Assembly: GCA_963812945.1 (NCBI GenBank) | Contig: CAWEXD010000008.1 | Span: 1,612,001-1,676,000 of the forward strand | Length of the DNA: 64,000 nucleotides | DNA from: DASRDR01 sp963812945 [NCBI: uncultured Candidatus Rokubacteria bacterium] | Lineage (GTDB): Bacteria; Methylomirabilota; Methylomirabilia; Rokubacteriales | Direction: 5' to 3' | Part shown: positions 6,020-55,708 of the stretch, one piece after another | Numbering within the stretch: the stretch's first letter is position 1 | Layout of the letters: every line of letters begins with the position of its first letter | The notes under the pieces: model-generated | Databases searched by the model: none | Told to the model about the DNA's origin: nothing | What the model saw: only the letters and a program-made list of their open reading frames with translations | Translations under genes and position numbers: made by a program

Positions 6020-9000
6020 TCAGCCGAGGTTGACGGAGACGATCCGCGAGAGCCCGGGCTCCTCCATGGTGACGCCGTAGAGCACGTCGGCCGCCTCCAT
6101 GGTCTTCCGGTTGTGGGTGATCACCACGAACTGCGTCTGGCCCGCCAGCTCCCGGAGGACCCGCGTGAACCGATGGATGTTCGCGTCGTCGAGCGGCGCG
6201 TCCACCTCGTCGAGGAGACAGAAGGGGCTCGGCCGGAAGTAGAAGATCGCGAAGAGGAGGGCCAGCCCCGTCAGGGCCTTCTCGCCCCCCGAGAGGAGCG
6301 AGATCGCCTGGAGGCGCTTTCCGCGCGGCTGGGCGACCATCTCGATGCCCGTGTCGAGCGGGTCGCCTCCCTCGGGCGCCTCGACCAGACGCAGCTCCGC
6401 GCGCCCGCCTTCGAAGAGGCGCGTGAAGAGGTCCTGGAAGTTCCGGTTGATGGCCTCGAACGCCGCCAGGAACCGCTCCTGCGCGGTCCGCGTCATGCCG
6501 CGGAGGGCCTTGTCCAGGTCGCGAATCGACGCCGACAGGTCGTCGTGCTGGGCCTGGAGGAAGCCGAGCCGCTCGTCCAGCTCGCGGTACTCGTCGTCCG
6601 CGATGAGGTTGACCGGCTCGAGCGCGCTGATCCGATGCCCGACGACGTCGAGGCGGGCGCGCGCCTCTTCGAGATCGCGCGCCGGGTCGTGCGCCTCGCG
6701 GAGGGCTTGCGCGTCCACCTCGAAGCGGCGCCGCGCGTCGGCCTCGAGATCCTGGCGCCGGACGCGCATCTCCGCCAGCCGGATGGTGTGCTCCTGGACG
6801 ACGCGCGTCGCCCGGTGGAGCTCGGCCTCGGCGCCGCGAAGATCGTCGCCCGCCCGGGTCACCGCGTCCATCCGCTCGCGCAGGGCCTCGGTCGCGAGCC
6901 GGGCCGCGCTCTCCGCCTGGTCCCGCTCGCCGCGCACGACCTCCGCCCGCGCGTCGAGGCGCTCCCGCTCGCCCCGGCCTTCCTCGAGCCGGGCCCGGAG
7001 CGCGACCAGCCGCTCCTCGCCCGAGCCGATGCGCTCCTGGGCCTCCCCGTCGTCGACCTGGTTCCGCGCGAGGTCGGACTCGATCGAGTCCATGCGCCCC
7101 GCCAGGGCCGCCAGGTCGACCTGCGCGTCCAGGAACGCCTGGGCGCGCTGCGCCTCCGCGTCGGAGTCGGCCTCGATCCGGCCGAGGAGCGCGGTGATCG
7201 CCGACGCCACGCGCGCCCCGGCCGCCTCGACCTCGCCGAGCGCCGCCCGGTGAGTCCGGGCCTCGGCCTCGACCGCCTCGGCCTCCCCGCGGAGCTGGGC
7301 GAGCTCGGCCCGGCACGCCTCCCAGTGCAGACCCACCCGCTCGGCCTCGCGGACGATCTGCTCGAGGTCCTTCGACGCGGTCAGCCGATCGGCCTCGGCG
7401 CTCTCCCGCGCGGTGGCACGGGCGCGCTGGCTCTCGTCGAGCGACAGCACGCGCGCCTCCGCCTGGCGCACGCGCTCCTGGGTCTCCCCGAGCTCGCGCT
7501 CCAGGCGCCCGAGCTCCTGGCCGAGGTCGCGGATCGCCCGCTTCCGGGCGAGGAGCGACGCGTCGCCGCTCGACGCCGCACGCCCGCCGCCGAGCGCGCC
7601 CGGCGGGCCGAGCAGCTCGCCCCCCACCGTGACGAAGCTCGCGCCGTGGCCGTTCTGCGCGTACAGGCGCTCCGCCGCGCCGAGGTCCCGGACCACGACG
7701 ACGGACCCGAGCAGGTTGGCGACCAGCCCGGGATGGCCCGACGCGACGAGGGCGTTCGCCAGCCCGACGACTCCGGGGTCCCGGCCGACGTGCGCCTCGG
7801 GGCCCCCGTTGAGCCAGTCGAGCGGGAGGAACGTGGCCTGGCCGCCCCCGGATCGGCCGAGGTAGCCGAGCGCCGTCTTCGCGGTCTCGAACGTCTCCAT
7901 GACCACCCATTGGAGGCGCTCGCCCAAAGCCGCCTCGACGGCGCGCTCGAGCTCCCGGGGCACCTCCAGGAGATCCGCCACGGTGCCCACGACACCCCGG
8001 AGACGCGCCTCCCCCGCCGCCTGGAACACGGCCTGGACGCCTTGGCCGTAGCCGGCGCGCTGCGCCTCCAGCTCCTCGAGGGCGGCCAGGCTCGACCGTC
8101 GCGCGGCGATGGTCACGCGGCACGCCTCGGCGGCCTCCCCCGCCTGGATGCGCTCGGCCGCCGCCGCCCCGGCGTCCGTGGCCAGGTCCCGGAGCTCCAC
8201 CTCGAGCGTGGCGACGCGCGCGGCCGCCGCCCCCACGCGCGTGCTGGCGACGCCGCGCGCCGCCTCGATCCGCTCGCGCTCGGCGTCCGCCTCCGCCCGC
8301 TCCGCGCGGAGCCGGTCGAGCCGGCGACCGAGCTGCTCGCGGCGCTCGTCGAGCCCCCCGAGGATCTGCCCGAGCTCGGTTCGGCGCCCCGCGACGGCGA
8401 TCTGCTCCCCGCGCTGCGCCTCGGCCGCCTCGCGGCCCTGCCGAAGCCGCCCCCGGAGCTCCTCGATCGCCGCCTCCTCGGTCGCGGCCCGGGCCTGGAG
8501 CGCCGCGAACTCGGCTCGGATCGCCTCGAGGAGCGTGCCCTTCGCGCGGCGCTCCTCCGCGAGGGTCTTCAGCCGGAGGGACAGCGTCTCGGCCTCGTCG
8601 CGAAGCCGCGCGACCTCGGCGCCGAGGTCGCGCTCGACCAGCCGGAGCTGCTCGGCCCGGCCCACGCAGCCCTCGAGCTCCAGCTCCGCCCGCTGGAGCG
8701 CATGGCGGGACTCGGCCGCCCGCTGCTCGGTGCCCATGACGTCGGCCCGCGCCAGCTCGAGCGCTGCGCCGAGGGCCGCGACGCGCGTCTGACCCGTGTC
8801 GACCCGGCTCCGCTCGGCCGCCTCCTCGCTGCCCGAGGGCGGATTCCTCGCCGGCCAGGTCGGCGTGCTCCGCGGCCAGGAGGGCCACCTCGAGCGCCCG
8901 CCGCTCGGCCTGGAGCGCCTTGTGCTGCTGCGCCTTCTTCGCCTGCCGCTCGAGGGACGCGAGCTGCCGCTTCACCTCGTCCATGACGTCCCGGACGCGC

Positions 9001-9563
9001 AGGAGGTTCTGGCGCGTGGCGTCGAGCTTCGCGAGCGTCTCGGTCCGCTGCTGCTTGTACCGCGTGATGCCCGCGGCCTCCTCGACGAAGACGCGCCGGT
9101 CGAGCGGCTTGGCCGTGAGGATCTGCGCCAGGCGCTCCTGCTCCATGAGCGCGTAGGCCTTGGGATTGACACCCGTGCCCATGAAGAGGTCGTGGACGTC
9201 CTTGAGCCGGCAGACGTTCTTGTTGAGCACGTACTCGGACTCGCCGTCGCGGTAGAGCCGGCGCCCGACGCCGACCTCGCTCCACGGCACGGGAAGCTCC
9301 CCGTCGTTCGAGAAGGTGAGCAGGACCTCGGCGAGCCCGAGGGGCCGCCGCGAGGTCGACCCGTGGAAGATCACGTCCTCCATGCGGTGCCCGCGAAGGG
9401 CCTTGGGGCTCTGCTCGCCGAGCGCCCACCGGAGGGCGTCCGAGATGTTGGACTTCCCGCAGCCGTTCGGGCCGACGATCGCGGTGATCCCGGGCAGGAT
9501 CCGCACGTCGGTGCGGTCCGCGAAGGACTTGAAGCCGAACAAGGTGACGCTTTGCAGCCGCAT
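6020..9563 (-). CDS. smc: Chromosome segregation ATPase SMC (apparent +1 frameshift near 8826-8845)
   Basis: SMC is the structural ATPase of the condensin-like complex that compacts and segregates chromosomes. The N-terminal head has Walker A GPNGCGKSNISDAL and starts MRLQSVTLFGFKSF at ATG 9563. Long coiled coils flank a hinge (roughly 8070-7560), and the C-terminal head has LLSGGEKALTGLAL (signature), the Walker B region FCLLDEVDAPLDDAN, and ends MEEPGLSRIVSVNLG. Total length corresponds to about 1,180 residues, as in the family. The distance 9563-6020 is 3,544 nt, one more than a multiple of three: the frame changes in the first coiled coil between AEHADLAGEESAL and EEAAERSRVDTGQ. As smc is normally needed for healthy growth, a sequencing indel is likelier than a real lesion. 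Confidence 0.95.
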
Positions 9564-9645: not shown

Positions 9646-9663
9646 CCTAGATGTGGGGCGGCG

Positions 9664-12442
<2,779 letters not shown>

Positions 12443-16011: not shown

Positions 16012-17429
16012 GCGAAGAAGTGCCGCGCCGCGGCGTCGCGCACCTCCGCGAGGGTTTCCGCGTCCGACGCCTCCACGTAGAGCCGCGCCACGGGCTCCGT
16101 GCCGGATGCGCGAACGAGCACCCAGGCGCCCCCGTCCAGGTGGAGCTTCAGGCCGTCGGTAGTCTGGACGCGCCGGACGGTCCACCGCCCGAGCGCTGGC
16201 GGCGGCTCGGCGATCCGCGCCGGCAGAGCGCGGCGCACCGCCTCACCGAGCGGGACGTTGACACGAACGGACAGAAGCCGTCCCACCTCCCCGTGGAGCC
16301 GCTCCAGCACGTCTCCGAGGGCCACGCCTTCCACCGCGGCGATCTCCGCCGCCAAGAGGCACGCCAGGATTCCGTCCTTCTCCGGCGGGTGACCCCGGAG
16401 GCTCATGCCGCCCGACTCCTCGCCGCCGAACATGGCCCGTCCCTGCGTGATGAGGTCGCCCACGTACTTGAAGCCGACGGGCGTCTCGTGGAGCTCGCAG
16501 CCGTGGCGGGCGGCCAGGGCGTCGAGGAGATGGGTGGTGGCCACGCTCCGCGCCACGCCGCCCCGCCAGCCCCGGTGGCCCAGGAGATGCCGCAGGACCA
16601 GCGCCAGGATCGGGTTCGGCGCCAGCACCGTGCCGTCCCGGTCCACGACGCCGAAGCGATCCGCATCCCCGTCCGTGGCGAGCCCGAGGTGGGCGCCGCG
16701 CTCCCGTACCGTCCGGATCAGCTCGCCCAGGTGCTCCTCCGCCGGCTCCGGCGGGTGGCCGCCGAAGTTGACGTCGCGGGCCCCGTGGAGGAGCGTCACC
16801 TCGCAGCCGGCCTCCTCGAGCAGGCGATCGAGGTATCCCTTCGCGGGCCCGTACATCACGTCCACCACGACGCGCAGCCGGGCCTGTCGGATCGCGGTGA
16901 GGTCGATCAGCCGCCGGCAGTGATCGAGGTAGGGCGCCGCAAAGTCCGCCGACTCGACCAGTCCCGCCGCGCGCGCCTCCGCGAGGAGCAGCCCTCCCGG
17001 GTCGTCCAGCCCGGCGACTCGCGCCTCGATCGCCCGCGTCACCTCCGGCAGCGCGGGGCCCCCCGTCGGTCCCGAGAGCTTGAAGCCGTTGTCCCAGGCC
17101 GGGTTGTGGCTGGCGGTGATCGTGATGCCGGCGGCGGCCCGGTGGTGAAGGACGGCGTGAGCCACGGTGGGGGTGGGCACGGCCGCGACCGCAAGCCGGC
17201 AGCGGACCCCTGCCTGAGCCAGCGTTCCGGCCGCGGCCGCCGCGAAGTCCTCCGACAAGAACCGCGTGTCGTACCCGACGACGGCGCCCTGCCCGGCCTC
17301 TCCGGTTTCCCGGAGGTGGTCCGCCACGGCCCGCGTGAGACGCCGCACGTTCGCGAACGTGTAGGTCTCCCCGATGCGGGCCCGCCATCCGGAGGTGCCG
17401 AACTTGATCGCGTCGAGCGGGGCGCTCAC
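16008..17429 (-). CDS. Phosphoglucomutase/phosphomannomutase family phosphohexomutase
   Basis: The enzyme interconverts hexose 1- and 6-phosphates. The four alpha-D-phosphohexomutase signatures are present in order: catalytic phosphoserine in TASHNPAWDNGFK, Mg-binding DGDADRFGVVD, the sugar-specificity loop FGGEESGGMS and the phosphate-binding RASGTEPVARLYVEA. GEESG favours glucose/mannose-type substrates, but which one cannot be decided. The start is GTG 17429, which overlaps the rhomboid gene's TGA as GTGA; the in-frame ATG further upstream lies inside the neighbour. The product is 473 residues. Confidence 0.94.
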   Translation of the reverse strand: MSAPLDAIKFGTSGWRARIGETYTFANVRRLTRAVADHLRETGEAGQGAVVGYDTRFLSEDFAAAAAGTLAQAGVRCRLAVAAVPTPTVAHAVLHHRAAAGITITASHNPAWDNGFKLSGPTGGPALPEVTRAIEARVAGLDDPGGLLLAEARAAGLVESADFAAPYLDHCRRLIDLTAIRQARLRVVVDVMYGPAKGYLDRLLEEAGCEVTLLHGARDVNFGGHPPEPAEEHLGELIRTVRERGAHLGLATDGDADRFGVVDRDGTVLAPNPILALVLRHLLGHRGWRGGVARSVATTHLLDALAARHGCELHETPVGFKYVGDLITQGRAMFGGEESGGMSLRGHPPEKDGILACLLAAEIAAVEGVALGDVLERLHGEVGRLLSVRVNVPLGEAVRRALPARIAEPPPALGRWTVRRVQTTDGLKLHLDGGAWVLVRASGTEPVARLYVEASDAETLAEVRDAAARHFFA

Positions 17430-18193
17430 CGGCGTCCTCGCTTCCGCGCGATCATGGGCCCCGGGGCCCACGGCCTCGGCCGGCGCCGGAACGAGTTGAT
17501 CAGGGCGAGTCCGGCGACGAAGCCCCCGACATGGGCGAGGAACGCGACCCCTCCCGTGTCACCGCGCGCGATCGGGAAGACGGCGAGCAGGACCTGGAGG
17601 ACGATCCAGAATCCCAGCACGACCAGCGCGGGCACGGCGATCACCCGCCAGAAGAACCCGACGGTCACGAGCGTCCAGACCCGCGCATTCGGGTAGAGCA
17701 CGAGGTACGCCCCCAGGATCCCCGAGACCGCGCCGCTAGCGCCCACCATCGGCACCGCCAGGGCCGGGTTCTGGAGATACTGCGCCACCGCGGCCGCGAG
17801 CCCGCACAGAAGGTAGAACCCGAGGAAGCGTCCGTGCCCCATGGAGTCCTCGACGTTGGCGCCGAAGATCCAGAGGTAGAGCATGTTTCCCCCGACGTGC
17901 AGGAGACTCCCGTGGATGAACATCGACGTGAGAACGGTCAGCGCCGGTGGCGGGGCGCCGGCCAGCGCCGTGTCCAGAGTCGGCGGGCAGATGTCTCCCA
18001 CCCGGCACGGGATCAGGCCGAACTCGACCACGAATTGCTCGTAGAGCGTGCCGCCCAGCGACGGGCGTCCCGCGACGGCCGGGTCGAACCAGAGGAAGAA
18101 CTGGTAGAGGTAGAGAACGACGTTGACGGCGATCAGGGCAACCACCACCCCGGGGAACGAGCGGGTCGGGACGTCGACCTTGAACGGCAGCAT
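17426..18193 (-). CDS. Rhomboid family intramembrane serine protease
   Basis: Rhomboids cleave transmembrane substrates within the bilayer. The 255-residue protein has at least six hydrophobic helices. The family marks are the HGSLLHVGGNMLYLWIFG segment, the catalytic serine in VGASGAVSGILGAY (GxSG) and a later His in FLAHVGGFVAGLALI, the Ser-His dyad. The C-terminus is short and basic (RRRPRPW, ARKRGRR). It is coupled by a 4-nt overlap to the downstream phosphohexomutase and starts 15 nt after the M16 gene. Confidence 0.94.
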   Translation of the reverse strand: MLPFKVDVPTRSFPGVVVALIAVNVVLYLYQFFLWFDPAVAGRPSLGGTLYEQFVVEFGLIPCRVGDICPPTLDTALAGAPPPALTVLTSMFIHGSLLHVGGNMLYLWIFGANVEDSMGHGRFLGFYLLCGLAAAVAQYLQNPALAVPMVGASGAVSGILGAYLVLYPNARVWTLVTVGFFWRVIAVPALVVLGFWIVLQVLLAVFPIARGDTGGVAFLAHVGGFVAGLALINSFRRRPRPWAPGPMIARKRGRR

Positions 18194-18208
18194 GGTGCCC
18201 GCCGGCCC

Positions 18209-19516
18209 TCAAGCCGGGCCGACCACGACGACCGCCGGCTCGATCAGGTGCCGGCGCGCGGCCTGCAGCACGTCGGTCGCATCGACGGCCTCCAGGAGGC
18301 TCGGATAGTGCATCACGTACTCGGCGCCGACCCCCATCACCTCGTAGAAGGCCAGGTAGAAGCTCTGGCGCCCGTTCGTCCGGCGGTCGAGCACGAACGA
18401 GCCCGAGAGGTAGGCCTTGGTCCGCCCGAGCTCGTCCTCCGGCACCGGCTCCCCGTCCAGGCGTGCCACCTCCCGGCGGAGACCCGCTTCCGCCGCCTCC
18501 ACGTTCTCGGGGGCCGTCCCGATGTGGAGCACGATGCGCCCGGCGCCCCGGCGCGTCGGGTACACCGAGCCCACGGAATACGCGAGCCCCTCCTCGTCCC
18601 GGAGGGTCCGGAAGAGTCGGCTGGACATCCCGCCGCCGAGGATCCCGTTCAGCACCTTGAGCGCGACGTGGTCCGGGGCGGCGACCGTCGGGGCGAGATA
18701 GCCGAGCATGACGTGCGCCTGCTGGGTCGGCGACGTCTCCCGCTGGCGGAGCCGGACCGGCCGATCCGGCGGTGGCGGCGCGGCGGCGAGGGGCCCGCCG
18801 GCCGCCCGCCCGTCGAAGAGCCGCGCCACCTCGGCGAGCACCTCGTCGGCGGCGAGCGCGCCGGACACGGCCAGGACGAGCCGATCGGTCGCGTATGCCT
18901 GTCCGAACCGGTCGACCAGGCCGGCGCGGACGATCCGCGCCACGGTCGCCTCCTCGCCGCTCGAGGGCAGCCCGTAGCCCCGGGGGCCGAAGAGCCCGCG
19001 GGCGAGGATGCGGCTGGCGACCTGAGCCGGCTGGTCCTCGAGCCCGCGAATCTGGGCCAGGAGCACCTGGCGCTCGCGCTCGATCTCCTCGTCCGCCAGC
19101 CGTGGCTCGGTCACCACCTCGTGCAGGAGCGCGAGCAGACGGCGCCAGTGCCGCGCGAGCCCCCAGGTCCGCACCTCGGCGTACTCCTGGTCGGCCCCGC
19201 TCTCGATGCCTCCCCCGGCGTCCTCCGCGGCGGACGCCACCTCGACGGCGCTTCGAGCCCGCGTCCCCTTGAGGAGCACGCGGCCCAGCAAGGCGGTCAC
19301 GCCGTTCTGCTCCGGCGGCTCGCTGGCCGCGCCCGCCCGTGACAGGAGCGTCATCGCGACGACGGGCACCGCCCGGTTCTCCCGCACCAGCACCGTCAGC
19401 CCGTTCGGGAGGACGAGGCGCGTGACCGGACCCAGCCCCGCGACCGTCGACCGGCTGGCGCCCGGAATGAGCCCGGGGCACGGCCCGCCGCTCGCCTGGC
19501 TCTCGGCCGGGATCAC
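18209..19516 (-). CDS. M16 family peptidase-like protein lacking the zinc motif (non-catalytic partner)
   Basis: M16B peptidases often come as pairs in which one subunit has lost zinc binding. This 435-residue protein has the M16 fold from VLPNGLTVLVRENRAVPVVA onward, but where HxxEH is expected it reads NGVTALLGRVLLKGT, so it cannot bind zinc in the usual way. The C-terminal domain keeps the Arg/Tyr pair used for substrate grasping (RRTNGRQSFYLAFYEVMG). GTG 19516 overlaps the stop of the upstream active subunit as GTGA, consistent with a heterodimer made in fixed ratio. Residues 1-30 are Ser/Gly/Pro-rich with no signal peptide. Confidence 0.92.
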   Translation of the reverse strand: MIPAESQASGGPCPGLIPGASRSTVAGLGPVTRLVLPNGLTVLVRENRAVPVVAMTLLSRAGAASEPPEQNGVTALLGRVLLKGTRARSAVEVASAAEDAGGGIESGADQEYAEVRTWGLARHWRRLLALLHEVVTEPRLADEEIERERQVLLAQIRGLEDQPAQVASRILARGLFGPRGYGLPSSGEEATVARIVRAGLVDRFGQAYATDRLVLAVSGALAADEVLAEVARLFDGRAAGGPLAAAPPPPDRPVRLRQRETSPTQQAHVMLGYLAPTVAAPDHVALKVLNGILGGGMSSRLFRTLRDEEGLAYSVGSVYPTRRGAGRIVLHIGTAPENVEAAEAGLRREVARLDGEPVPEDELGRTKAYLSGSFVLDRRTNGRQSFYLAFYEVMGVGAEYVMHYPSLLEAVDATDVLQAARRHLIEPAVVVVGPA

Positions 19517-20763
19517 TCGGCGCCTCCCTGGCCCCCGCCGAGGGCGGCGCCGGTGAAGCGGTCAGGGTGGAGGTGGCGCCGGGCGGCGTCGCGCATGGCC
19601 TCGCGCGTCACGCGCCTCACGGCCTCCACGTATCCCAGCTCGAACTCGAGGGTCCACACCGCATCCGCGGTTCCGAGCGAGTAGGCCGCTCCCTCCGCGG
19701 TCTCCCGGCCGAAGGCGTGGTCGGCCTCCACCGCCGTCATGGCTCGCGCGAACTCGTCCTCCGTGACGAGCTCGTCGCGCACACGCTCGACCTCGGCCAG
19801 GACCGCCGCCTCGATCTCGGCGTAGCGCGCCGTCGAGGTCCGGGCGCTGACCGCCAGCATCCCGCCGTCGTGCTGGAGGTAGAAGCTCGCGCCGATCCCG
19901 GAGACGAGCCCGAGCCGCTCGCGGAGCGACTGCACGAGCCGCGACGACCGGCCCTGGCCGAGCACGGTTGTCACGAGGTCGAGGGCGTAGACGTCGGCGT
20001 CCGGCGGAATCGGGCCCGCCCACGCGAGCCCGAGGTACGTCTGGTGAAGCGCTCGCCTCTCCTCGACCCGGCGCGGCGCGTCGAGCGGCGCGGGCGGACG
20101 CCGGGGGCGGGCCGGGACCGGCCGCGGAGCCCAGGCGCCGAAGGACGCGCGGACGGCGTCGAGGCATTGCGCCGCCGGAACGCTTCCGCTGACCACGACG
20201 GTGGCGTTGTTCGGCACGTAGAAGCGCCGGTAGTAGTCGACGATCGCCTCGCGCGGGACCCCCTCGATGGAGTCGGCCGTGCCGAGGACCGGCCGCCCGT
20301 ATGCATGCTCCCCGTAGTGCCGGCGGGCCAGCACCCGCCACAGCGCGGCGCTCGGCGTGTCCTCGGCGCGGCGGATCTCCTCCAGGACGACCTGGCGCTC
20401 GCGCTCGACCTCCACTGAGTCGAACAGGGCGTGCTGGGCCGCGTCGGCCAGAACGTCCAGCGCGGTGCCGAGGCGCTCCGCGGGAAGGACGACGTGGAAG
20501 TACGTCCAGTCCTGGGACGTCGCCGCGTTCATGTCGCCGCCGTGGCCGGAGATCGTCTGGTCGATCACCCCCGGCCCCCGCGAGGGTGTCCCCTTGAAGA
20601 GGAGATGCTCGATGAAGTGCGAAAGCCCCGCCTCCTCGGGCCCCTCGTCGCGGGCCCCCGTGCGCACCCAGAGCTGCACCGCGGCGACGTCCGCCGCGTC
20701 GTGCGGCTGGAGCACCGCGGTGAGGCCGTTCTCGAGACGGACGCGCTCGGGCGGGAGATTCAT
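19513..20763 (-). CDS. M16 family zinc metallopeptidase (catalytic subunit)
   Basis: The 416-residue protein shows the inverted zinc motif in LSHFIEHLLFKGT (HxxEH, near residue 50) with the downstream Glu in the VEVERERQVVLEEIRRAED region. It has the two M16 domains, the second beginning near YYRRFYVPNNATVVVSG. No signal peptide is visible, so it is probably cytoplasmic, with peptide or processing-peptidase-like substrates. It is followed by its inactive partner with a 4-nt overlap and preceded by a HIT protein. ATG 20763 has a good Shine-Dalgarno sequence (GAGGGGG). Confidence 0.95.
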   Translation of the reverse strand: MNLPPERVRLENGLTAVLQPHDAADVAAVQLWVRTGARDEGPEEAGLSHFIEHLLFKGTPSRGPGVIDQTISGHGGDMNAATSQDWTYFHVVLPAERLGTALDVLADAAQHALFDSVEVERERQVVLEEIRRAEDTPSAALWRVLARRHYGEHAYGRPVLGTADSIEGVPREAIVDYYRRFYVPNNATVVVSGSVPAAQCLDAVRASFGAWAPRPVPARPRRPPAPLDAPRRVEERRALHQTYLGLAWAGPIPPDADVYALDLVTTVLGQGRSSRLVQSLRERLGLVSGIGASFYLQHDGGMLAVSARTSTARYAEIEAAVLAEVERVRDELVTEDEFARAMTAVEADHAFGRETAEGAAYSLGTADAVWTLEFELGYVEAVRRVTREAMRDAARRHLHPDRFTGAALGGGQGGAE

Positions 20764-20782
20764 CGGGACGCCCCCTCGCGTC

Positions 20783-21133
20783 TCAACGGCGCTCGACCTT
20801 CCGCTCGTCGCGGCGCCCGGCCAGGAAGTGCAGATGGAGGTGATCGACGACCTGGCCGCCCTCCGGACCGCAGTGGACGGCGAGCCGGTAGCCGCGCTCG
20901 GCGAACCCTCGAGCCTCCCCGATGCGCTTCGCGGTGAGAACCAGGCGGCCCACGAGGCTCGCGTCCTCGGGCTCGAGCGCCATCACGGACTCGACGTGGC
21001 GCTTGGGGACGACGAGCACGTGCACGGGGGCCTTCGGATAGATGTCGTGGAAGGCCAGGATCTCGTCGTCCTCGTACTCGACGGTGGCGGGGCTCCGGCC
21101 GGCGACGATCTCACAAAACACGCAGGCGGGCAT
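20783..21133 (-). CDS. HIT family nucleotide hydrolase/transferase
   Basis: HIT proteins hydrolyse nucleoside phosphoramidates and related dinucleotides. This 116-residue protein starts CVFCEIVAGRSPATVEYEDD, with zinc-type Cys residues, and ends with the histidine triad in GGQVVDHLHLHFLAGR (HxHxH). That is the Hint/HinT pattern. The start is ATG 21133; the long open frame upstream is an antisense-like extension of the HD-GYP gene region. It lies 17 nt after the response-regulator gene. Confidence 0.95.
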   Translation of the reverse strand: MPACVFCEIVAGRSPATVEYEDDEILAFHDIYPKAPVHVLVVPKRHVESVMALEPEDASLVGRLVLTAKRIGEARGFAERGYRLAVHCGPEGGQVVDHLHLHFLAGRRDERKVERR

Positions 21134-21150
21134 GAGGCGCCGACGGACGC

Positions 21151-22140
21151 TCAGCGGTGCCCGTTCGCCGAGGCCTGCTTGAGCTCGAGGAACACGCGGA
21201 CCAGGTCCGGGTCGAACTGGCCGGTCCGGGCCCCCTCGCGGAGGCTCTCGAGCGCATCCTCCTCGCCGAAGGGGGTCTTGTAGGGGCGCTGGGTGCACAG
21301 CGCGTCGTACACGTCGACGATCGCCATGAGCCGTGCGAGGAGCGGCACCTCTTTCTCGCCGAGCCGGTCGGGGTAGCCTCGCCCGTCCCAGCGCTCGTGG
21401 TGGTGCCGGATGATGGGGCGCACCAGGCCGAGCGTCCGCATCGGCAGGACGAGCCGGTCGCCGGCGGCCGGGTGCTCTTCCATGAGCCGGCGCTCGTCGG
21501 GGCTCAGGGGGCCCGCCTTGAGGAGCACTCCGTCGGGCACCGCGATCTTCCCCAGGTCGTGCAGGAAGCCGCCCAGGCGGAGCGCCTTCAGCTCCTCCGC
21601 GCCGAGCCCGAGCCGCTCGCCGAACTCCATCGCGCACGCGGCCAGCCGCACGCAGTGCCCGGCCGTGTACGGGTCCCGCGCCTCGATCGTGAGCGCGAGG
21701 CTGGTGATCAGGCTCTCCGCCTCTTCCAGCTCCTCGAGGACCCGCTTCAGGCGGATGAGGGACCGGAGTCGCGCGCCGAGCTCGCGCGGGTGGACGGGCT
21801 TCGTGAAGTAGTCGTCCGCGCCGGCGGCGAGCCCCGCCACCCGGGAATCCAGCTCTCGTTCGGCCGTGAGGAGGACCACCGGGATGAAGTGCGTGACCGG
21901 GTCGCTCTTGAGGTGCCGGCAAAGGTCGATCCCGGTCATCCCGGGCATCCGCACGTCCAGCAGGATCAGGTCGGGGAACTCCTTGGCGATCTCGGTGAGC
22001 GCCTCGGCGGCGGATCCCACGTCGCGGACCGCGTATCCGAGGTGCGCGATGTAGTCCCGCATCGTCTCACGGACCATGAGGTCGTCGTCGACGATCAGGA
22101 CCCGCCCGAGGGCGACCGGGTTGTGCGTGGACGGTGTCAC
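21151..22140 (-). CDS. Response regulator with HD-GYP phosphodiesterase domain
   Basis: An N-terminal receiver domain (about residues 12-130: VLIVDDDLMVRETM, phospho-acceptor Asp in LILLDVRMPGMTG, Lys in YFTKPVHPRE) is joined to an HD-GYP domain (about 145-320) with FLHDLGKIAVPD, IRHHHERWDGRGYP and VDVYDALCTQRPYK. HD-GYP proteins usually hydrolyse cyclic di-GMP, so phosphorylation may control that activity. The start is GTG 22140, 7 nt after the sensor-kinase gene, so they form one unit. The partner kinase is degenerate, which questions how this receiver is phosphorylated. Confidence 0.94.
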   Translation of the reverse strand: MTPSTHNPVALGRVLIVDDDLMVRETMRDYIAHLGYAVRDVGSAAEALTEIAKEFPDLILLDVRMPGMTGIDLCRHLKSDPVTHFIPVVLLTAERELDSRVAGLAAGADDYFTKPVHPRELGARLRSLIRLKRVLEELEEAESLITSLALTIEARDPYTAGHCVRLAACAMEFGERLGLGAEELKALRLGGFLHDLGKIAVPDGVLLKAGPLSPDERRLMEEHPAAGDRLVLPMRTLGLVRPIIRHHHERWDGRGYPDRLGEKEVPLLARLMAIVDVYDALCTQRPYKTPFGEEDALESLREGARTGQFDPDLVRVFLELKQASANGHR

Positions 22141-22147
22141 GCGGGCA

Positions 22148-24652
22148 CTATCCCTGGGCCGGCAGCGCGACGGTGACCCACGTGCCGCGGTCCGGCTCGC
22201 TCTCCACGCGGATCTTCCCGCCGAGCGCGGCGACCAGCCGATCGGCCACCGTGAGAAGGAGACCCGTGCCGGGCAGCGCCCGCCCGTTCCGGGGGCTCAC
22301 CGCGCAGAACGGCTGGAGGATGCGCTTCTGCTCCTCCGGGGTGAAGCCGACGCCGTCGTCGGCCACGGTGATGACCACGTCACGGTCCTTCTGGTAGCAC
22401 GTCACGCGGATCTCGCCGACCTCGGTGTACTTCACCGCCGAGAGGATCAGGTTCCCGAGAACCTGCTCCACCCGGCGCCCATCGGTGACCACCGGCCCCA
22501 GCCCGGGCTTGATCTCGGCCTCGATCCGGTTGCCCTTGGCCGCGACGCGGGGCTGGAGCGCGCGGACCACTCGCTGGACGAGCGCCGGCAGATCCAGCGC
22601 GGCCTTGCTGATCTTTAGCCCCCCCGCGTGGAGCGCGCTCAGCGTCGTGAGCCCTTCGATCAGCTCCAGGATCTCCTGCCCGCGCTCCTGCAGGATCTCG
22701 AGCTGTCCTCGCTCGGCGTCGCCGAGCGGCTTCTGGAGCCCGTCGACCAGAAACCGGGGCAGGTCGAGGAGCGCGCTGAGCGGCGCGCGCAGCTCCTCGG
22801 TGACGGTCTTCTGCATCGCCGCGCGGAGCCGGGCCGTCTGGTCGACCGCCGGGTCGGCGCGCACGACCTCTCGCTCGACGATGACCTCCTTGACCTGCGG
22901 GACCTGGGCGGCGGCCTGGGCCGCCTGGAGCCTCATGCGCTGCTCGAGGTCCTTCGTCTGCTTCCGCGCCTCCTGCGTCTGCCGTTGGGCCTCGGCGTGG
23001 TCGACGGCGGCCTTCTGGAGCGCCTCCCCCTGCTGGGCGAGCTGCGCCTCGAGACCCTGGGTGCTGCGCTGCACCGAATCCAGCGCCTGGGCCCGGTCGA
23101 TGGCCTGGGCGGTCCGGCGGACGATTGCCTCCAGCCGGCCGACCTCGTCGGGGGGAAAGGCGTGCGGCGCGCGATAGCCGACGGCGACCACGCCGAGAAG
23201 CTCGTCGCCGACCAGAAGGGGGAACGCGGCGACGGAGCGCACCCCTCCGTCCTTCAGGTACGGCTCCTCGATCCGGTACTCGGCCTCCACGTCGGTCACC
23301 ATGAGCGGCTCCCGGGCGGACATGACCGCGCCCGCGAGCCCCTGGCCCCGACGGAGCCGCGTTCCCTCGACCTGCGTCCCGTGAAAGCCCACGGCGGCCC
23401 GGGCCGCCAGGCCAGCCTCGTCCGGGAGGACCAGCACGCCGACGTCCGCCCCGACGCCGCCGACGACTCGGCGGAGCAGACCCGGCAGGACCGCGTCGAT
23501 CGATCGGTCGCTCGCGGCGACGTGGGCCCCCGCCTCGTCGAGCCCGCTCACCACCTCGTACTCGCGAAGCTTTCCACGAAGCCAGCTCAGCATCCGGTTG
23601 AAGCTGTGCGTCAGCGCGCCCGCCTCTCCGCCGACCGTCACGCCCAGGGTCGCCGGCAGGTCACCGCCCTCGAGCCGCCCCATCGCCTGACGGAGCCGTC
23701 CGAAGCCCTCGATCTGGCGGCCGGCCATCCGGACAGCCGCAACGAGCGCCAGCGCCGTCAGGGCAAGCGCGCCGCCGCCGACCAGGAGGAGGTGGTTCCG
23801 CGTGTCGCGCATGATCTCGGCGGTCGGCATCCCGGCCACGAGGGTCCAGCCCATTGGGTGGATCCGGACCGCGGCCGCGACGCGGGAGACGCCGTCCTCG
23901 AACACGGCCTCTCCGGTACCGGCGCGCGACACGAGCTCGGGATACCCCGGGTTGTCGGCCACGCTCGACATGAGGAACAGCACCGGCTGGCGCGCGACCA
24001 CCACCCCGCGGTCCGTCAGGAGGGCCGTCACGGTCCCCGGTGTGGCCCCCTTCGCCGGGGCCAGCAGGTCCTGGACGCGCTTGAGGAGCAGGTCGAGCGC
24101 GAGAACCCCCCGGAGCTGCCCCTCGGGGGTTCGCACCGGCGCATAGAGCCCGACCACGATGTCCGGGCCGGTCCTCGACGGGACGCCCACGGACGCCTCC
24201 GTCGACGTCGCCGCGCGCTTGAACCAGTCCTGATCTCCGACCACCAGGCGTTTGCCCTCGGGCAGACCGGGCACCGACGCGGCCGCCACGCCCAGCTCGT
24301 CGAACAGGACGACCCGATCGACGTCGGGAAACGCCTGCTTCAGTCGTCGCCCCTGGGCCTCGCCCGCCCCGGTGGTCGCGCCTCCGGTCCCGAGGAGATT
24401 CGCGGCTCCCGCGAGGGCCTCGATGCGGGCCCCGAAGTGCTTCTCCACCTGCGCGCTCAGAAGGCTCGCCTGAGCGAGGGCGTCCCGCTCCGCTCGTTCA
24501 CGCTCCCGGCTGACCTGCCCCCAGGCCAGGTAGCCGATGAGGAGCAGGAACGGGACGCTGGTCGCGAGGGCGGCTCCGAGGAAGGCGCGGCGGAGTGAGC
24601 CTGTCGCTTCCCCGCCCTTGCCCTTCGTGTCCCCCACGCCGGGGCTGGCCAT
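22148..24652 (-). CDS. Cache-GAF sensor histidine-kinase-like protein lacking the phospho-accepting His
   Basis: The 834-residue protein has an N-terminal membrane helix (about 26-46), a double-Cache-type periplasmic sensor (about 60-290), a second helix (about 290-312) and a HAMP-like segment. A GAF domain (about 380-530), a Gln-rich coiled coil and a kinase core follow. In the core, the phospho-acceptor motif SHELRTP is TEELRAP, so Glu619 replaces His. The N-box Asn that binds Mg-ATP is Ser738 (NLILSAVKYT), and G2 reads PGTGLLL instead of GTGLGL. G1 ADDGVGF is kept. It is therefore probably a pseudokinase that senses a ligand and acts on the downstream HD-GYP regulator allosterically or through another kinase. 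ATG 24652 overlaps the stop of a 17-codon uORF. Confidence 0.9.
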   Translation of the reverse strand: MASPGVGDTKGKGGEATGSLRRAFLGAALATSVPFLLLIGYLAWGQVSRERERAERDALAQASLLSAQVEKHFGARIEALAGAANLLGTGGATTGAGEAQGRRLKQAFPDVDRVVLFDELGVAAASVPGLPEGKRLVVGDQDWFKRAATSTEASVGVPSRTGPDIVVGLYAPVRTPEGQLRGVLALDLLLKRVQDLLAPAKGATPGTVTALLTDRGVVVARQPVLFLMSSVADNPGYPELVSRAGTGEAVFEDGVSRVAAAVRIHPMGWTLVAGMPTAEIMRDTRNHLLLVGGGALALTALALVAAVRMAGRQIEGFGRLRQAMGRLEGGDLPATLGVTVGGEAGALTHSFNRMLSWLRGKLREYEVVSGLDEAGAHVAASDRSIDAVLPGLLRRVVGGVGADVGVLVLPDEAGLAARAAVGFHGTQVEGTRLRRGQGLAGAVMSAREPLMVTDVEAEYRIEEPYLKDGGVRSVAAFPLLVGDELLGVVAVGYRAPHAFPPDEVGRLEAIVRRTAQAIDRAQALDSVQRSTQGLEAQLAQQGEALQKAAVDHAEAQRQTQEARKQTKDLEQRMRLQAAQAAAQVPQVKEVIVEREVVRADPAVDQTARLRAAMQKTVTEELRAPLSALLDLPRFLVDGLQKPLGDAERGQLEILQERGQEILELIEGLTTLSALHAGGLKISKAALDLPALVQRVVRALQPRVAAKGNRIEAEIKPGLGPVVTDGRRVEQVLGNLILSAVKYTEVGEIRVTCYQKDRDVVITVADDGVGFTPEEQKRILQPFCAVSPRNGRALPGTGLLLTVADRLVAALGGKIRVESEPDRGTWVTVALPAQG

Positions 24653-30130: not shown

Positions 30131-30982
30131 ATGCCACCGCGCGCGCTCCTCACCGGCACGCTCACGCTCGGACTCGTCACCGTCCCGATCCGGCTGTACA
30201 CGGCCACCCGCTCGGAGGGCGTGGCGTTCCACCTCCTGCACGAGCCCTGCGGCAGTCGGGTTCAGAATCGGACCTACTGCCCCGCCTGTGCGGTGGCCGT
30301 GCCCCGCGAGGAGCTCGTGCGCGGATTCGAGGTCAACCCGGAGGAGTACGTCCGCTTCACCGACGCGGAGATCAAGGCGCTCGAGGACCAAGGCAGCGGC
30401 GTCGTCGACATCCTGGAGTTCGTGCCGCTCGACCAGGTGGATCCGGTCTACTTCGAGCGCACCTACTACCTCGGGCCCGGGAAGGGCGGCGACCAGGCCT
30501 ATCAGGTGCTCCGCCAGGCCATGGCCGAACGGGGGCGGGTGGCGCTCGCGACGTACACGATGCGCGGCAAGTCGCACCTGGTCCTCCTTCGTCCGGTCGC
30601 GGACGGCTTGCACCTCCACACGCTCTACTACGCCGACGAGGTCGCCAGCTTCGCCGAGGTGGAGCGCCCGGACGCGAGTGTCAGACCGGGGGAGCTGGAG
30701 CTCGCCGTCCGGCTGATCGAGGATCTCGCGCAGCCCGAGGCGGACTTGGCGCAGCATACGGACGAGTATCGCCAGCGTGTCCTCGCGGCCATCGAGCACA
30801 AGCGCGCGGGCGGGACGCTCGACGCCGCCGAGCTGCCGGCGCCGGCTCCGACCGAGGATCTGATGGCGACTCTGCAACGGAGCCTCGAGACGCGCCGGCC
30901 ACGTGCGAAGGCGAGCCTCGCGGCGACCGAGCCGGAGAGCCCCGCCGCCGCCACCACGTCCAAACGACGCCGGGCCTCCTGA
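30131..30982 (+). CDS. ku: Non-homologous end-joining protein Ku
   Basis: Bacterial Ku forms a ring on broken DNA ends and recruits the ligase LigD. The 283-residue protein shows the Ku core from TGTLTLGLVTVPIRLYTATR, through HEPCGSRVQNRTYCPACAVA (Cys-rich turn), EYVRFTDAEIKALEDQGSGV and ERTYYLGPGKGGDQAYQVLR, to RGKSHLVLLRPVADGLHLHT. The basic C-terminal tail (TSKRRRAS) resembles the DNA-binding extension of bacterial Ku. No ligD lies in the window. A decayed copy of the last part of this gene lies about 800 bp downstream. Confidence 0.96.
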   Translation: MPPRALLTGTLTLGLVTVPIRLYTATRSEGVAFHLLHEPCGSRVQNRTYCPACAVAVPREELVRGFEVNPEEYVRFTDAEIKALEDQGSGVVDILEFVPLDQVDPVYFERTYYLGPGKGGDQAYQVLRQAMAERGRVALATYTMRGKSHLVLLRPVADGLHLHTLYYADEVASFAEVERPDASVRPGELELAVRLIEDLAQPEADLAQHTDEYRQRVLAAIEHKRAGGTLDAAELPAPAPTEDLMATLQRSLETRRPRAKASLAATEPESPAAATTSKRRRAS

Positions 30983-43538: not shown

Positions 43539-44789
43539 TCAGTGCGTCGAGGGACGGAGCCGTCCGCTCCCGAGCAGCTCACGCGCGCGCCGGAGCGCGT
43601 CCACGAGCGCCAGGAGGTCGTCGGCGCCCGTGTGGACGAAGAAGCTCGCCCGGGCGGTCCCGGCGACCCCGAGCCGCCGCATGAGCGGCTGCGCGCAGTG
43701 GTGCCCGGCCCGCACCGCCACGCCCTCGGCGTCGAGGGCCGCCGACAGGTCGTGCGGATGAACGCCCGGGAAGTTGAAGGAGAGGACCCCCGCGCGGATG
43801 TCCGGGTCCCGCGGGCCGTAGAGCTCGAGATCCTCGACCTCGGCCAGGCGCGAGAGCGCCTCCCCGACGAGCGCCGCGTCGTGCCGGCGGACCTCCTCGC
43901 GCCCGAGGCCCTCCACGTAGTCGATCGCCGCCCCGAGGCCCACGGCGCCGGCGATGGGCGGCGTGCCCGGCTCGAACCGCCACGGCAGATCGTTCCACGT
44001 CGCGCGGTCGAGCCACACCTCGCGGATGATCTCGCTGCCGCCAAAGAACGGCTCCAGCGGCTCGAGCACCTCGCGGCGGCCGTACAGCACGCCGATTCCC
44101 GTCGGCCCCCCCATCTTGTGGCCCGAGAACGCGTAGAAGTCGGCGCCGAGCGCCGCCACGTCGACCGGGAGATGCGGCGCGGCCTGGGCGCCGTCCAAAA
44201 GGACCCGGGCGCCGGCCGCCTGCGCGCGCTCGACGATCTCGGCGACGGGATTGATCGTGCCCAGCACGTTCGAGACGTGGGCGAGCGCCACGAGCCGCGT
44301 CCGGCGGTTCAGGAGGCGGTCGAACGCCGGGAGGTCGAGCGTCCCCTCGTCGGTCACGGGCACGTGCCGGAGGCGCAGCTTTCGCTCGCGAGCAAGGAGG
44401 ATCCAGGGCACCAGGTTCGAATGGTGCTCCATCTCGGACAGGAGGATCTCGTCCCCCGCGACGAGCGCTCGGCGCGCCCAGGTGTGGACGACCAGGTTGA
44501 TCGCCTCCGTCGTTCCCTTGGTGAAGACGATCTCCTCGCGATGCCGCGCCCCGATGAACGCCCGCACCCGGTCCCGGGCGCCCTCGTAGAGCTCCGTCGC
44601 CTCCTCCCCGAGCGTGTGGATCGAGCGGTGGACGTTGGCGTTCGACCGCTCGTAGAAGAGACGCATGGCATCGAGCACGGGACGCGGCTTCTGCGCCGTC
44701 GCCGCCGAGTCGAGGTAGACGAGCCGGCGCCCTCCGATGGTGCGAGAGAGGATCGGGAAGTCCGGGCGAACCCGGTCGGGGAGGCTCAC
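43539..44789 (-). CDS. sufS: Cysteine desulfurase, SufS type
   Basis: SufS releases sulfur from cysteine as an enzyme persulfide for Fe-S or molybdenum cofactor work. The 416-residue protein shows VYLDSAATAQKPRPVLDAM, NANVHRSIHTLGEEATELYE, EMEHHSNLVPW, the PLP lysine in AFSGHKMGGPTGIGVLYG and the persulfide Cys in RAGHHCAQPLMRRLG, a short-loop group II pattern. GTG 44789 overlaps the sufU stop (GTGA), so the pair is coupled. Confidence 0.95.
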   Translation of the reverse strand: MSLPDRVRPDFPILSRTIGGRRLVYLDSAATAQKPRPVLDAMRLFYERSNANVHRSIHTLGEEATELYEGARDRVRAFIGARHREEIVFTKGTTEAINLVVHTWARRALVAGDEILLSEMEHHSNLVPWILLARERKLRLRHVPVTDEGTLDLPAFDRLLNRRTRLVALAHVSNVLGTINPVAEIVERAQAAGARVLLDGAQAAPHLPVDVAALGADFYAFSGHKMGGPTGIGVLYGRREVLEPLEPFFGGSEIIREVWLDRATWNDLPWRFEPGTPPIAGAVGLGAAIDYVEGLGREEVRRHDAALVGEALSRLAEVEDLELYGPRDPDIRAGVLSFNFPGVHPHDLSAALDAEGVAVRAGHHCAQPLMRRLGVAGTARASFFVHTGADDLLALVDALRRARELLGSGRLRPSTH

Positions 44790-45238
44790 CGGCGCTCCCC
44801 GGCCACGCCCGAGGGGCCCGGCGGGCTCGGAGCCGCGGGGCGGCCGCGGACCGACGCGATCCGTTCCGCGCCGGCGCCCAGCGCCCCGCGCAGCACGGCC
44901 AGCGGCAGGGAGACGCATCCCTGGCGGGACGCCCGGATCGGGGCGCCGAGGGCCGCCAGGAGCGCATCACGCTCGAGACCGAGCGCGCTCTCCACCGAGC
45001 GCCCTTCCACCATCTCGGCCAGGAGATCGGCGGAGGCCGTCGCGACGGCGCAGGCATCTCCCTGGAAGCGGACCGCCTCGACGTCCCGGTCGGCGCCGAG
45101 GCGCAGCTCGATCCGGAGGCGGTCGCCGCAGAGGGGGTTCACGTCCTCGTGAGACGCGTCGGCCCCGGGCAGCTCCCCGAAGTGCCGAGGGTGCCGGAAT
45201 CGCTCCAGGATCACGCCGCCGTAGAGCGGAGCCGTCAC
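44786..45238 (-). CDS. sufU: Zinc-dependent sulfurtransferase SufU
   Basis: SufU accepts the persulfide from SufS through a zinc-bound cysteine exchange. The roughly 150-residue protein has the Fe-S scaffold-like fold (YGGVILERFRHPRHFG) with ligands in NPLCGDRLRIEL (Cys, Asp), FQGDACAVATASA (Cys) and RQGCVSLPLAVLRG (third Cys). GTG 45238 has the Shine-Dalgarno GAGGG at 7 nt; GTG 45265 would add nine residues and cannot be excluded. The C-terminal 20 residues are Pro/Gly-rich. It lies directly downstream of the molybdenum-cofactor genes. Confidence 0.92.
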   Translation of the reverse strand: MTAPLYGGVILERFRHPRHFGELPGADASHEDVNPLCGDRLRIELRLGADRDVEAVRFQGDACAVATASADLLAEMVEGRSVESALGLERDALLAALGAPIRASRQGCVSLPLAVLRGALGAGAERIASVRGRPAAPSPPGPSGVAGERR

Positions 45239-45320
45239 CGACGAGCCCTCGATCCCATCAAGCACGGCGCTAGGTTAGCCATCGGTCTCTCGTGAACTGG
45301 ATGATCCTGCGTGCCTCCGG

Positions 45321-46364
45321 TCATTCCGGCAGGGTCCCCCGCTCTCGCCCCGCCCGGTACGGCGGAAACCGGAACGCCATCTCCCGCCCGAGGAGGCCCC
45401 CGTGCCCATATCCCGCGAGATCCTCCGGGTCGACGCTCTCGCCCGCGAGGAGGCGCGGGAGGAGCAGGTCGAAGAGGGTCGCCTGGGAGAACATGCCGCA
45501 CCCCGGCATGCCGATGACCGGCGCGGCGCCCACGCGCGCGACCCAGAGTAGGCTCCCCGGGTGCGCCGGCACACCGTTGCGCACCAGCCGGCCGCCGATC
45601 CGCTCGATCGCCGCGAACACGGGATCCAGGGGATCGAGCGCGTTGGCTCCGGCGACGACGAGGATGCGCGCCCCGGCGGCGATGGAGTCCTCGAGGGCCC
45701 GGCCGAGGGCCGCGGCCTCGGATTCCGCGTATTCGAGCCGCGCGAGCGGCGCCCCGAACCACTCGAGCTTCTCGCGGAGGACCGCCTCGAACCGCGCGCG
45801 TGGCCGCGCCGCGAGGCTGGCGGGCGCGATCGCGCCCACGGGCCGCCCCTCGAACGGGCGCACGCTCACGCACCCTCCGGCCGCTCCGGCGCGCTCCTCG
45901 ACCTCGCGGACCACCGCCTCGGAGATGACCAGCGGCGTCACCTTCGCGCGCGCGACCACCTCGCCGGCGTCGACCACCTGGGCGTCGTAGAGCGTGTAGA
46001 CCGACGCCCCCTCGAGACCGTTCACGGCGGCGAGGGGCGCGATCGCCACCCGCAGGATCCCCCGGTGCCGCGCGACGATCGCCCACTGGCCGCTCGCCGA
46101 GTCTCGGACGGCGACGCCCGCCCCCGCGACGGCCCGGGCCACCCGCTCCCCCGCGGGATCCTCGTGGAGATCGCCGGGCTCCATCTCGAGGAGGTGGATC
46201 TCCGTGCGCGCGCCGGCGACGAGCCGCGCGGCGCCGGCCCCGTCGAGACGCTCTCCCTTGCGCCCGAGCAACGCGCCCGACCCGTCCCGCACGTCGTGGG
46301 CCAGCACCCAGCCGGCGAGACGCTCGGCGCTCGAATCGGCCGGGACGAGCGCGTGCGCCTTCAC
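45321..46364 (-). CDS. Molybdopterin-binding domain protein (MoeA/CinA-like)
   Basis: The 347-residue protein has an N-terminal MoeA-like region (about residues 1-150, GWVLAHDVRDGSGALLGRKG and YTLYDAQVVDAGEVVARAKV). A MoCF-type molybdopterin-binding domain follows, with ARILVVAGANALDPLDPVFA and VPAHPGSLLWVARVGAAPVI, then GMPGCGMFSQATLFDLLLPR. Proteins of this kind sit next to XdhC in xanthine-dehydrogenase-family maturation loci. The exact reaction is not known. GTG 46364 overlaps the xdhC stop as GTGA. Confidence 0.85.
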   Translation of the reverse strand: MKAHALVPADSSAERLAGWVLAHDVRDGSGALLGRKGERLDGAGAARLVAGARTEIHLLEMEPGDLHEDPAGERVARAVAGAGVAVRDSASGQWAIVARHRGILRVAIAPLAAVNGLEGASVYTLYDAQVVDAGEVVARAKVTPLVISEAVVREVEERAGAAGGCVSVRPFEGRPVGAIAPASLAARPRARFEAVLREKLEWFGAPLARLEYAESEAAALGRALEDSIAAGARILVVAGANALDPLDPVFAAIERIGGRLVRNGVPAHPGSLLWVARVGAAPVIGMPGCGMFSQATLFDLLLPRLLAGESVDPEDLAGYGHGGLLGREMAFRFPPYRAGRERGTLPE

Positions 46365-47530
46365 GCGCGCGGGTCCGGCGCCACGCCGGCCTCGGCCGGC
46401 GGCGCGGCCGCGGCGTCCCGGGCCTCCGCCCGCATCGGCTTGGCGAGCACGAGGGGCCGGCCGCTGCCGCCGTAGCGGGAGGCGACGATCTCGGCCAGGA
46501 TGGCCAGCGCGATCTCGGGCGCCGTCTTCGCCCCCAGATCGAGCCCGATGGGCACCCGGATCCGCGCGAGCGACTCCTCGGACACGCCGTCCTCGCGAAG
46601 CATGCGCAGGATCGCCTCCCCGCGGCGCCGGCTTCCGAGCATCCCGATGTAGCCGGCCTCGCCGGCGAGCACGTGGCGGAGCACGGGGAGGTCGTACTTG
46701 TAGTCGTGGGCCACGAGCACGAGCGCCGTCGTGGCACGCAGCGGGATGCGCCGCACCAGCTCGGATGGAATCCCCACCAGGAGCTCGTCGACGTCGGGGA
46801 ACCGCTCGCGCGTCGCGAGCCGGGGCCGCCCGTCCACGACCACCGTGCGGTATCCGAGGGATTTCGCGAGGGTGACCAGCGGCATCGCGACGTGGCTCCC
46901 GCCCACCACCAGGAGCGTGGCGGGAGGCACGTGCACCTCGACGAAGACCTGGACCGCCGCCCCGGGACCCAGGCTCACGGTCCGGGAGACCCCGGTGGCG
47001 AGGGCCGGCTGCGCCGCTGCCGGCGCGGCCGCGTCGAGGGCGGGATCGCCCAGCGACCCCTCGCGCTGCCCGTCGTCGAGCAAGAGGAGCTTGGCGCCCC
47101 CGCCCGCCGCGTCCATTCGCGTGAGAATCGCCGCGGACCCGCCAGCGGCCACGTGCTGTCGCACCCGGTCGTAGAGCGCGAGCGTTCCCCGGGATGCCGG
47201 GCCGTCTCCGTCACCGAGGGCGACCGGCTCGACGAAGACCTCGATGGTCCCCCCGCACGTGAGGCCGATCTCCCAGGCGTCCTCGTCCCCGAGATCGAGG
47301 GAGAGCAGCTTCGGCCGGGATCCCTGGAGCACGCCCTCGGCCTCGGCCATCACCTCGGCGTCCACGCACCCCCCGATCGTCACCGAGCCGAGGATGCGAC
47401 CGTCCTCACCCACCCACATCTTCGCCCCCTCCTTGCGCGGAGTGGTGCCGTGGGTGCTGACGAGGGTGGCGAGCGCCGCCCGACCTTCGGTCCGGCGGAG
47501 GGACTCGATCTGGTCGAAGATCTCGCTCAC
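46361..47530 (-). CDS. XdhC/CoxI family molybdenum-cofactor maturation protein
   Basis: XdhC proteins bind molybdenum cofactor, shepherd its sulfuration and insert it into xanthine-dehydrogenase-family enzymes. The 389-residue protein has the N-terminal XdhC domain (LVSTHGTTPRKEGAKMWVGE, ILGSVTIGGCVDAEVMAEAE, LTCGGTIEVFVEP) and a C-terminal Rossmann domain (LLVVGGSHVAMPLVTLAKSL, ALVLVAHDYKYDLPVLRHVL, GYIGMLGSRRRGEAI). The start is GTG 47530, 7 nt after a TACAAT -10. It presumably serves the CoxSLM enzyme encoded 5 kb upstream. Confidence 0.94.
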   Translation of the reverse strand: MSEIFDQIESLRRTEGRAALATLVSTHGTTPRKEGAKMWVGEDGRILGSVTIGGCVDAEVMAEAEGVLQGSRPKLLSLDLGDEDAWEIGLTCGGTIEVFVEPVALGDGDGPASRGTLALYDRVRQHVAAGGSAAILTRMDAAGGGAKLLLLDDGQREGSLGDPALDAAAPAAAQPALATGVSRTVSLGPGAAVQVFVEVHVPPATLLVVGGSHVAMPLVTLAKSLGYRTVVVDGRPRLATRERFPDVDELLVGIPSELVRRIPLRATTALVLVAHDYKYDLPVLRHVLAGEAGYIGMLGSRRRGEAILRMLREDGVSEESLARIRVPIGLDLGAKTAPEIALAILAEIVASRYGGSGRPLVLAKPMRAEARDAAAAPPAEAGVAPDPRA

Positions 47531-47537
47531 GCCGCCT

Positions 47538-47543
47538 ATTGTA
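47538..47543 (-). promoter_or_regulatory. -10 box of xdhC (leaderless)
   Basis: The minus strand reads GCTACAATAGGCGGCGTG: TACAAT, seven bases, GTG start codon. No Shine-Dalgarno sequence fits, so transcription should begin at the start codon. Confidence 0.5.
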
Positions 47544-47642
47544 GCAGCGAGGAAGCCCCGGCTCTCGACACGGGGTTGGGCAGCCCGCGGGCTCGACTAC
47601 CGTGAAGCGGGCGTGGAGGTCGGCGTCTCCGGGCCTGTTCGC

Positions 47643-49574: not shown

Positions 49575-49602
49575 CGGAAGCCTCCTAGTCGGCGCGTCCC
49601 CG

Positions 49603-50751: not shown

Positions 50752-50817
50752 CCTCGTCCCCGGTGACGCCCGGGCACGGCGAGCTGGCGCGCCGGATCGG
50801 TCACGGGCGCGCCCGGC

Positions 50818-51702: not shown

Positions 51703-51748
51703 GCGGGCTCCTCGGTCGGCGTGGTTTGGGGGGCCGTACCGGCCCACC

Positions 51749-51757
51749 ATTGTATCA
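51749..51757 (-). promoter_or_regulatory. coxD promoter: mocA stop codon doubling as extended -10
   Basis: The minus strand reads TGATACAAT, in which TGA is the mocA stop codon and also the TGn element of an extended -10 (TG-A-TACAAT). It would start a transcript about 40 nt before coxD. The same fusion occurs at 60968-60976. Confidence 0.45.
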
Positions 51758-55699: not shown

Positions 55700-55708
55700 C
55701 GCCGGCCC

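Follow-up and report, generated by a model that had tools for sequence, protein, structure and literature searches.

A predicted pseudo-histidine kinase encoded directly before a REC-HD-GYP protein, with a possible role through protein contact

What might a membrane-bound sensor kinase do when the residues for its chemistry are gone, while its gene still adjoins that of a response regulator with an intact phospho-acceptor site? The question is raised by a gene of 834 codons on the minus strand (22148..24652) of the window, the whole 64-kb stretch of DNA analysed here; its identity, coordinates and strand agree with those of an earlier note on this DNA. Hydropathy reveals two hydrophobic stretches, putative transmembrane segments at about residues 22-45 (24518..24589) and 286-311 (23720..23797), on either side of a Cache-type sensor domain (dCache_1, residues 54-272, 23837..24493). 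These are followed by HAMP (residues 309-355, 23588..23728; Pfam, 35.7 bits), by GAF (GAF_2, residues 383-519, 23096..23506; 65.3 bits), by a long helix or coiled coil (residues 521-610, 22823..23092) that an AlphaFold2 model places with low confidence at about 586-598, by a degenerate HisKA (DHp) domain (about residues 611-680, 22613..22822) indicated by Pfam and by a helical hairpin in the model, and by HATPase_c (residues 724-833, 22154..22483; 81.8 bits, also present in the model). The input modules had been described as intact, which is slightly strong for Cache, at 38.5 bits against a cut-off of 45. HisKA scores 10.1 bits in the full-length protein (16.8 bits when the C-terminal piece is scored alone), compared with 67.5-80.9 bits in eight of the genome homologues considered below; against a Pfam cut-off of 26.9, this implies erosion of the whole HisKA profile and not of the histidine alone.

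Codon reading and alignment with homologues place Glu619 (GAG, 22796..22798) at the position of the phospho-acceptor His, Ser738 (TCG, 22439..22441) at that of the Mg-ATP Asn of the N-box, and Leu799 (CTT, 22256..22258) where G2 would have its third Gly, the box reading GTGLLL; all three are on the minus strand, and all three had been claimed in the earlier note. A fourth loss, absent from that note, is Ala623 (GCG, 22784..22786, minus strand) at the phosphatase Thr/Asn position four residues beyond the His (His+4). An active HisKA protein is expected to carry the H-box His, the N-box Asn, the third G2 Gly and Thr or Asn at His+4, and this sensor carries none of them, while retaining E620 (GAG), the acidic residue beside the His position, and a G1 box reading DDGVG. 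According to the parts of PMC3510030 available to us, phosphatase activity of HisKA proteins requires Thr or Asn at His+4, and a Thr-to-Ala change there abolishes it in HK853 of T. maritima and HK4262 of M. xanthus. Given these residue roles, Ala623 together with the losses at kinase positions predicts a sensor inactive both as kinase and as phosphatase, so that the original pseudokinase reading is well supported, and is strengthened by the additional loss of the phosphatase Thr. The protein is here called a pseudo-histidine kinase in the sense of a histidine kinase fold without the residues for histidine kinase functions, an assignment read from residues alone, whereas PMC12632262, in the portion consulted, frames such proteins by the functions they have lost.

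How unusual these losses are can be judged from 59 homologues, none of them an orthologue, comprising 17 kinase loci from genomes (read out of 38 genome matches listed) and 42 kinases from viral contigs (out of 53 viral loci, 11 with short matches having been dropped). The 17 genome loci are 25-36% identical to the pseudokinase over the kinase core, too distant to be orthologues, and His, Thr(+4), Asn and the third G2 Gly are kept in every one, with G2 of L005 reading GTGIGL. The viral loci were picked by a GTGLGL pattern and are therefore uninformative on G2; His is found in 41 of the 42 and Asn in all 42. Over the full set the Asn is invariant (59/59) and the His present in 58, the one remaining kinase (L044, viral) being beyond judging because its match stops short of the H-box. 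Glu occupies the His position in 0/59 homologues, and the idea that Glu619 might mimic a charged state is accordingly unsupported: mimicry of phospho-His by Glu is not, to our knowledge, established, and our literature search found no support for such a role. HisKA domains lacking the His amount to 0.9% (722 of 76,471) in the part of PMC12632262 that we consulted, where pseudo-histidine kinases are treated as a recognised kind; they are uncommon but already known.

The divergence extends beyond the catalytic residues. Alignment columns with 85% identity or more across the 59 homologues number 27 in the ATPase domain, where some are conserved partly through the G2-based choice of viral loci, and 15 in DHp; the pseudokinase matches 20 and 4 of them, respectively. 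Its overall loss of 18 of 42 conserved columns is the largest share of all, the next being that of L068 (14 of 41). Two readings of the DHp erosion present themselves: the transmitter may have been re-tuned for another role, or the phosphotransfer helices may no longer be constrained.

Searches for closer relatives were negative within their respective scopes. The scan of genome contigs returned no close relative of the pseudokinase, just the distant kinase L001; viral contigs, searched with the full protein as query, yielded no relative; and of 2715 plasmid records matched, none covered 80% of the query. The phylum of L001 was searched in overlapping draws of 149 and 392 genomes, with six and two candidates, respectively, scored per genome, so that better matches were possibly missed. 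The glycyl-tRNA synthetase (GlyRS) of the window was matched in 60 of the 149 genomes, at no more than 58% identity when the full length is compared and no more than 63% over partial stretches. These identities suggest that the phylum of L001 is probably not that of the window's source.

An AlphaFold2 model of residues 521-834, built on an alignment of 38 of the 42 viral-contig relatives (mean pLDDT 87.4, pTM 0.69), comprises a long helix, a helical hairpin and an alpha/beta ATPase domain. In structural comparison by VIA-align, DivL comes first (4q20; Z 25.1, rmsd 4.5, 224 residues aligned) in what amounts to a tie with HK853 (Z 24.6, rmsd 4.5, 215 aligned), while Foldseek ranks the active HK853 first and DivL 24th. 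The fold, then, does not single out DivL. The histidine kinase fold is predicted to be retained, although sharing a fold tells nothing of function.

The partner gene lies 7 nt past the stop codon of the kinase gene, on the same strand (21151..22140, minus; 329 aa, GTG start). By Pfam and residue reading it encodes a REC domain (21766..22101) with D18-D20, D62, T92 and K114, and an HD-GYP domain (21202..21687) with HDLGK and HHHERWDGRGYP, and thus unites HD...GYP motifs with a REC phospho-acceptor site. The earlier description of this gene as 7 nt away, with an intact phospho-acceptor Asp, is confirmed. Retention of the REC phosphorylation residues implies a phosphodonor somewhere. A gene of the HIT family (20783..21133, minus strand) begins 17 nt past the HD-GYP stop, and, judged by spacing alone, the pseudokinase, REC-HD-GYP and HIT genes may form one transcript. 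When both the pseudokinase and the REC-HD-GYP protein were compared with the 64 kb by tblastn, a plain search and not a profile search, nothing else fell below E 0.1.

Other genes of the window may be recorded here. Beyond the pseudokinase, tightly packed minus-strand genes, perhaps one transcript, occupy 17426-22150; they include, after HD-GYP and HIT, two M16-like peptidases (19513-20763, minus, by sequence reading; and 18209-19516, minus, YfmF-like, under cut-off) and a probable rhomboid protein (17426-18193, minus, by sequence reading). A bacterial Ku protein is encoded at 30131-30982 (PF02735, 157.4 bits). The interval 43539-58224 holds genes for a SufS-type cysteine desulfurase, an XdhC-like factor, a PhoX phosphatase, a MadC-like VWA protein, a MadB-like ATPase, a MobA-like transferase, a large subunit resembling that of CO dehydrogenase and a protein for nickel insertion; the scores of several lie under the family cut-off.

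Is a dead kinase, then, a usual companion of such regulators? Of 73 REC-HD-GYP relatives from 296 genomes with a match, the best two (L078, 43% identity, and L079, 44%) stand out by score; in the phylum of these two, GlyRS is at most 58% identical to that of the window over its full length (149 genomes). The surroundings of one of these best relatives (L108) contain no kinase detectable by core profile, and in those of the other (L109) a His-bearing kinase lies downstream of the REC-HD-GYP gene, with two genes between. Neither locus holds an orthologous pair, or a relative of the pseudokinase beside L078 or L079. Across 32 loci around REC-HD-GYP genes (L078-L109, of which L109 overlaps L079), the core profile detected 20 kinase-like frames. 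Ten of these show an H-box by a pattern that leaves the His position free, and all ten have His; alignment or inspection by eye added three further kinases with His (both of L095 and the second of L098); in the other seven frames the profile matches stop short of the H-box. With His thus present in 13 of 13 readable kinases, this pairing does not as a rule involve a dead kinase, in the single phylum sampled at any rate.

We favour, tentatively and with a probability of roughly 45%, the view that the protein works as a pseudo-histidine kinase through contact with another protein, most probably the adjoining REC-HD-GYP protein. It would not autophosphorylate, with His and the N-box Asn gone and G2 altered, nor, with Ala at His+4, would it remove phosphate from a regulator in the way of HisKA proteins. 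A signal at Cache or GAF would instead shift the coiled coil and the arrangement of DHp and ATPase domains, and the altered arrangement would change a protein contact in place of a flow of phosphate. The likeliest client would be the phosphodiesterase encoded immediately downstream: by binding or releasing its receiver domain the sensor may tune the breakdown of c-di-GMP, the receiver being phosphorylated by another kinase or by a small phosphodonor. Control of HD-GYP by binding, or the scaffolding of another kinase, both proposed in the earlier note, are plausible on the strength of the close gene spacing and of the precedents DivL-DivK, RetS-GacS and ChrS-HrrS. With so few conserved DHp columns kept, the docking face has possibly not survived, and the erosion of this domain counts against simple, unchanged docking on a regulator. 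Also adverse to this view are the single sequence in which the dead state is seen, the low Foldseek rank of DivL, the intact REC site with its implied phosphodonor, and the His of every readable kinase near other REC-HD-GYP genes.

Several other explanations must be set against this view. That the dead residues are an artefact of sequencing or assembly is given some substance by the window itself, whose sequence appears not to be free of error: in smc (6020-9563, minus strand) the N-terminus, with a start near 9563, is in a different frame from the remainder, and secA (9647-12442, minus strand) leaves its frame near residue 722, a SecA-like C-terminus continuing in another. Two neighbouring essential genes broken in this way suggest indel errors of assembly and not biology. 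In the pseudokinase gene, however, the minimum paths are two base changes for His to Glu, three for AAC to TCG (Asn to Ser738) and two for GGN to CTT (Leu799), for which sequencing slips or base-call errors are no sensible cause. With at least seven changes at three catalytic sites and another at a fourth (Thr to Ala623, possible by a single base change), all in frame and with recognisable flanks, an artefact is extremely improbable. Decay of a real gene deserves more weight. On that account the transmitter would be non-functional under relaxed constraint, HD-GYP would be run by some other kinase and the sensor would be useless, as the loss of 11 of the 15 conserved DHp columns and the depressed HisKA score could indicate. 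Yet the 834 codons are open, free of stops and frameshifts, codon-position bias is strong and uniform along the gene (GC3 is 0.93-0.94 in both the DHp and ATPase domains), and the ATPase domain still matches its profile well; the intact frame and the strong bias favour, short of proof, a protein still under selection. The three changes that separate the TCG of Ser738 from AAC argue likewise for an old divergence with the frame preserved. We consider decay unlikely, though a serious contender.

It might also be asked whether the protein is an enzyme still, by an unusual route, using ATP without the N-box Asn or phosphorylating another acceptor such as His675, the sole His of its DHp-ATPase region. 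The intact G1 box and E620 could accommodate this; but His675 lies in the model on the second helix of the hairpin, off the acceptor helix, at a position where 86% of homologues have Glu, and the invariance of the N-box Asn among the homologues makes ATP use without it hard to credit, so that we regard continued enzymatic activity as very unlikely. A different, active histidine kinase, joined with the pseudokinase as a heterodimer or influenced allosterically, would be a partner of another sort, with HD-GYP affected only indirectly. Precedent exists in a solved structure of the kinase region of RetS in complex with the DHp domain of GacS (7n0e, from its entry as far as consulted) and in a frameshifted ChrS that acts via HrrS, heterodimers being seen by two-hybrid assay (PMC9491836, in the sections available); the retained fold predicted here would suit such a role, and the intact REC domain needs a phosphodonor. 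Set against this are the 7-nt spacing, by which the HD-GYP protein is the more likely first partner, and the tblastn search, which, with the window alone as its scope, revealed no second kinase. We hold a kinase partner to be possible, as a minority explanation.

Contact with the adjoining REC-HD-GYP protein thus remains our preferred reading. A more specific version, in which a conserved, phosphate-free sensor of this transmembrane type directly gates REC-HD-GYP through ligand-controlled binding of the receiver, is doubtful at present. If it is true, an extracytoplasmic signal would act on c-di-GMP with no phosphorelay step in this sensor's own path. Few of the rare histidine kinases that are dead have been assigned a task, and one encoded directly before a c-di-GMP enzyme would offer a simple test of second-messenger control by binding. 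In a literature search with subscription papers mostly outside its scope, we found no description of a pseudokinase paired with HD-GYP, the one paper matched concerning, by title and opening of the abstract, a hybrid kinase in Acidovorax. Judged likewise by titles and the beginnings of abstracts, none of the papers found on pseudo-, degenerate or His-lacking histidine kinases deals with this protein, nor do those on HD-GYP proteins with cognate kinases or on two-component systems of Rokubacteria, a lineage tentatively suggested by GC and gene content.

Among known systems, DivL of Caulobacter offers the closest likeness, a HisKA-type transmitter without the phospho-acceptor His which, in the parts of PMC4211667 consulted, lacks kinase and phosphatase activity, as is predicted for the window protein, and binds DivK~P through its regulator docking face, changes at R553, T557, Y562 and H579 disrupting that binding. 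DivL differs in having Tyr550 where the window protein has Glu619, together with Ala623, Ser738 and Leu799, and in receiving input through PAS domains instead of Cache, HAMP and GAF. Its regulator, DivK, is a single-domain protein, whereas the neighbour here, by gene adjacency, is a REC-HD-GYP enzyme. RetS-GacS and ChrS-HrrS are alike in that a transmitter core works by contact with another kinase; in both the partner kinase is known, whereas none was found in the window for this pseudokinase, and ChrS, in the text of PMC9491836 available, became a pseudokinase by frameshift in an evolved laboratory strain. Ordinary pairs of histidine kinase and REC-HD-GYP, such as those of genome G001 at L005 and L004/L095, share the gene neighbourhood, but the G001 kinases have retained His, Thr(+4) and Asn, and the window pseudokinase has not.
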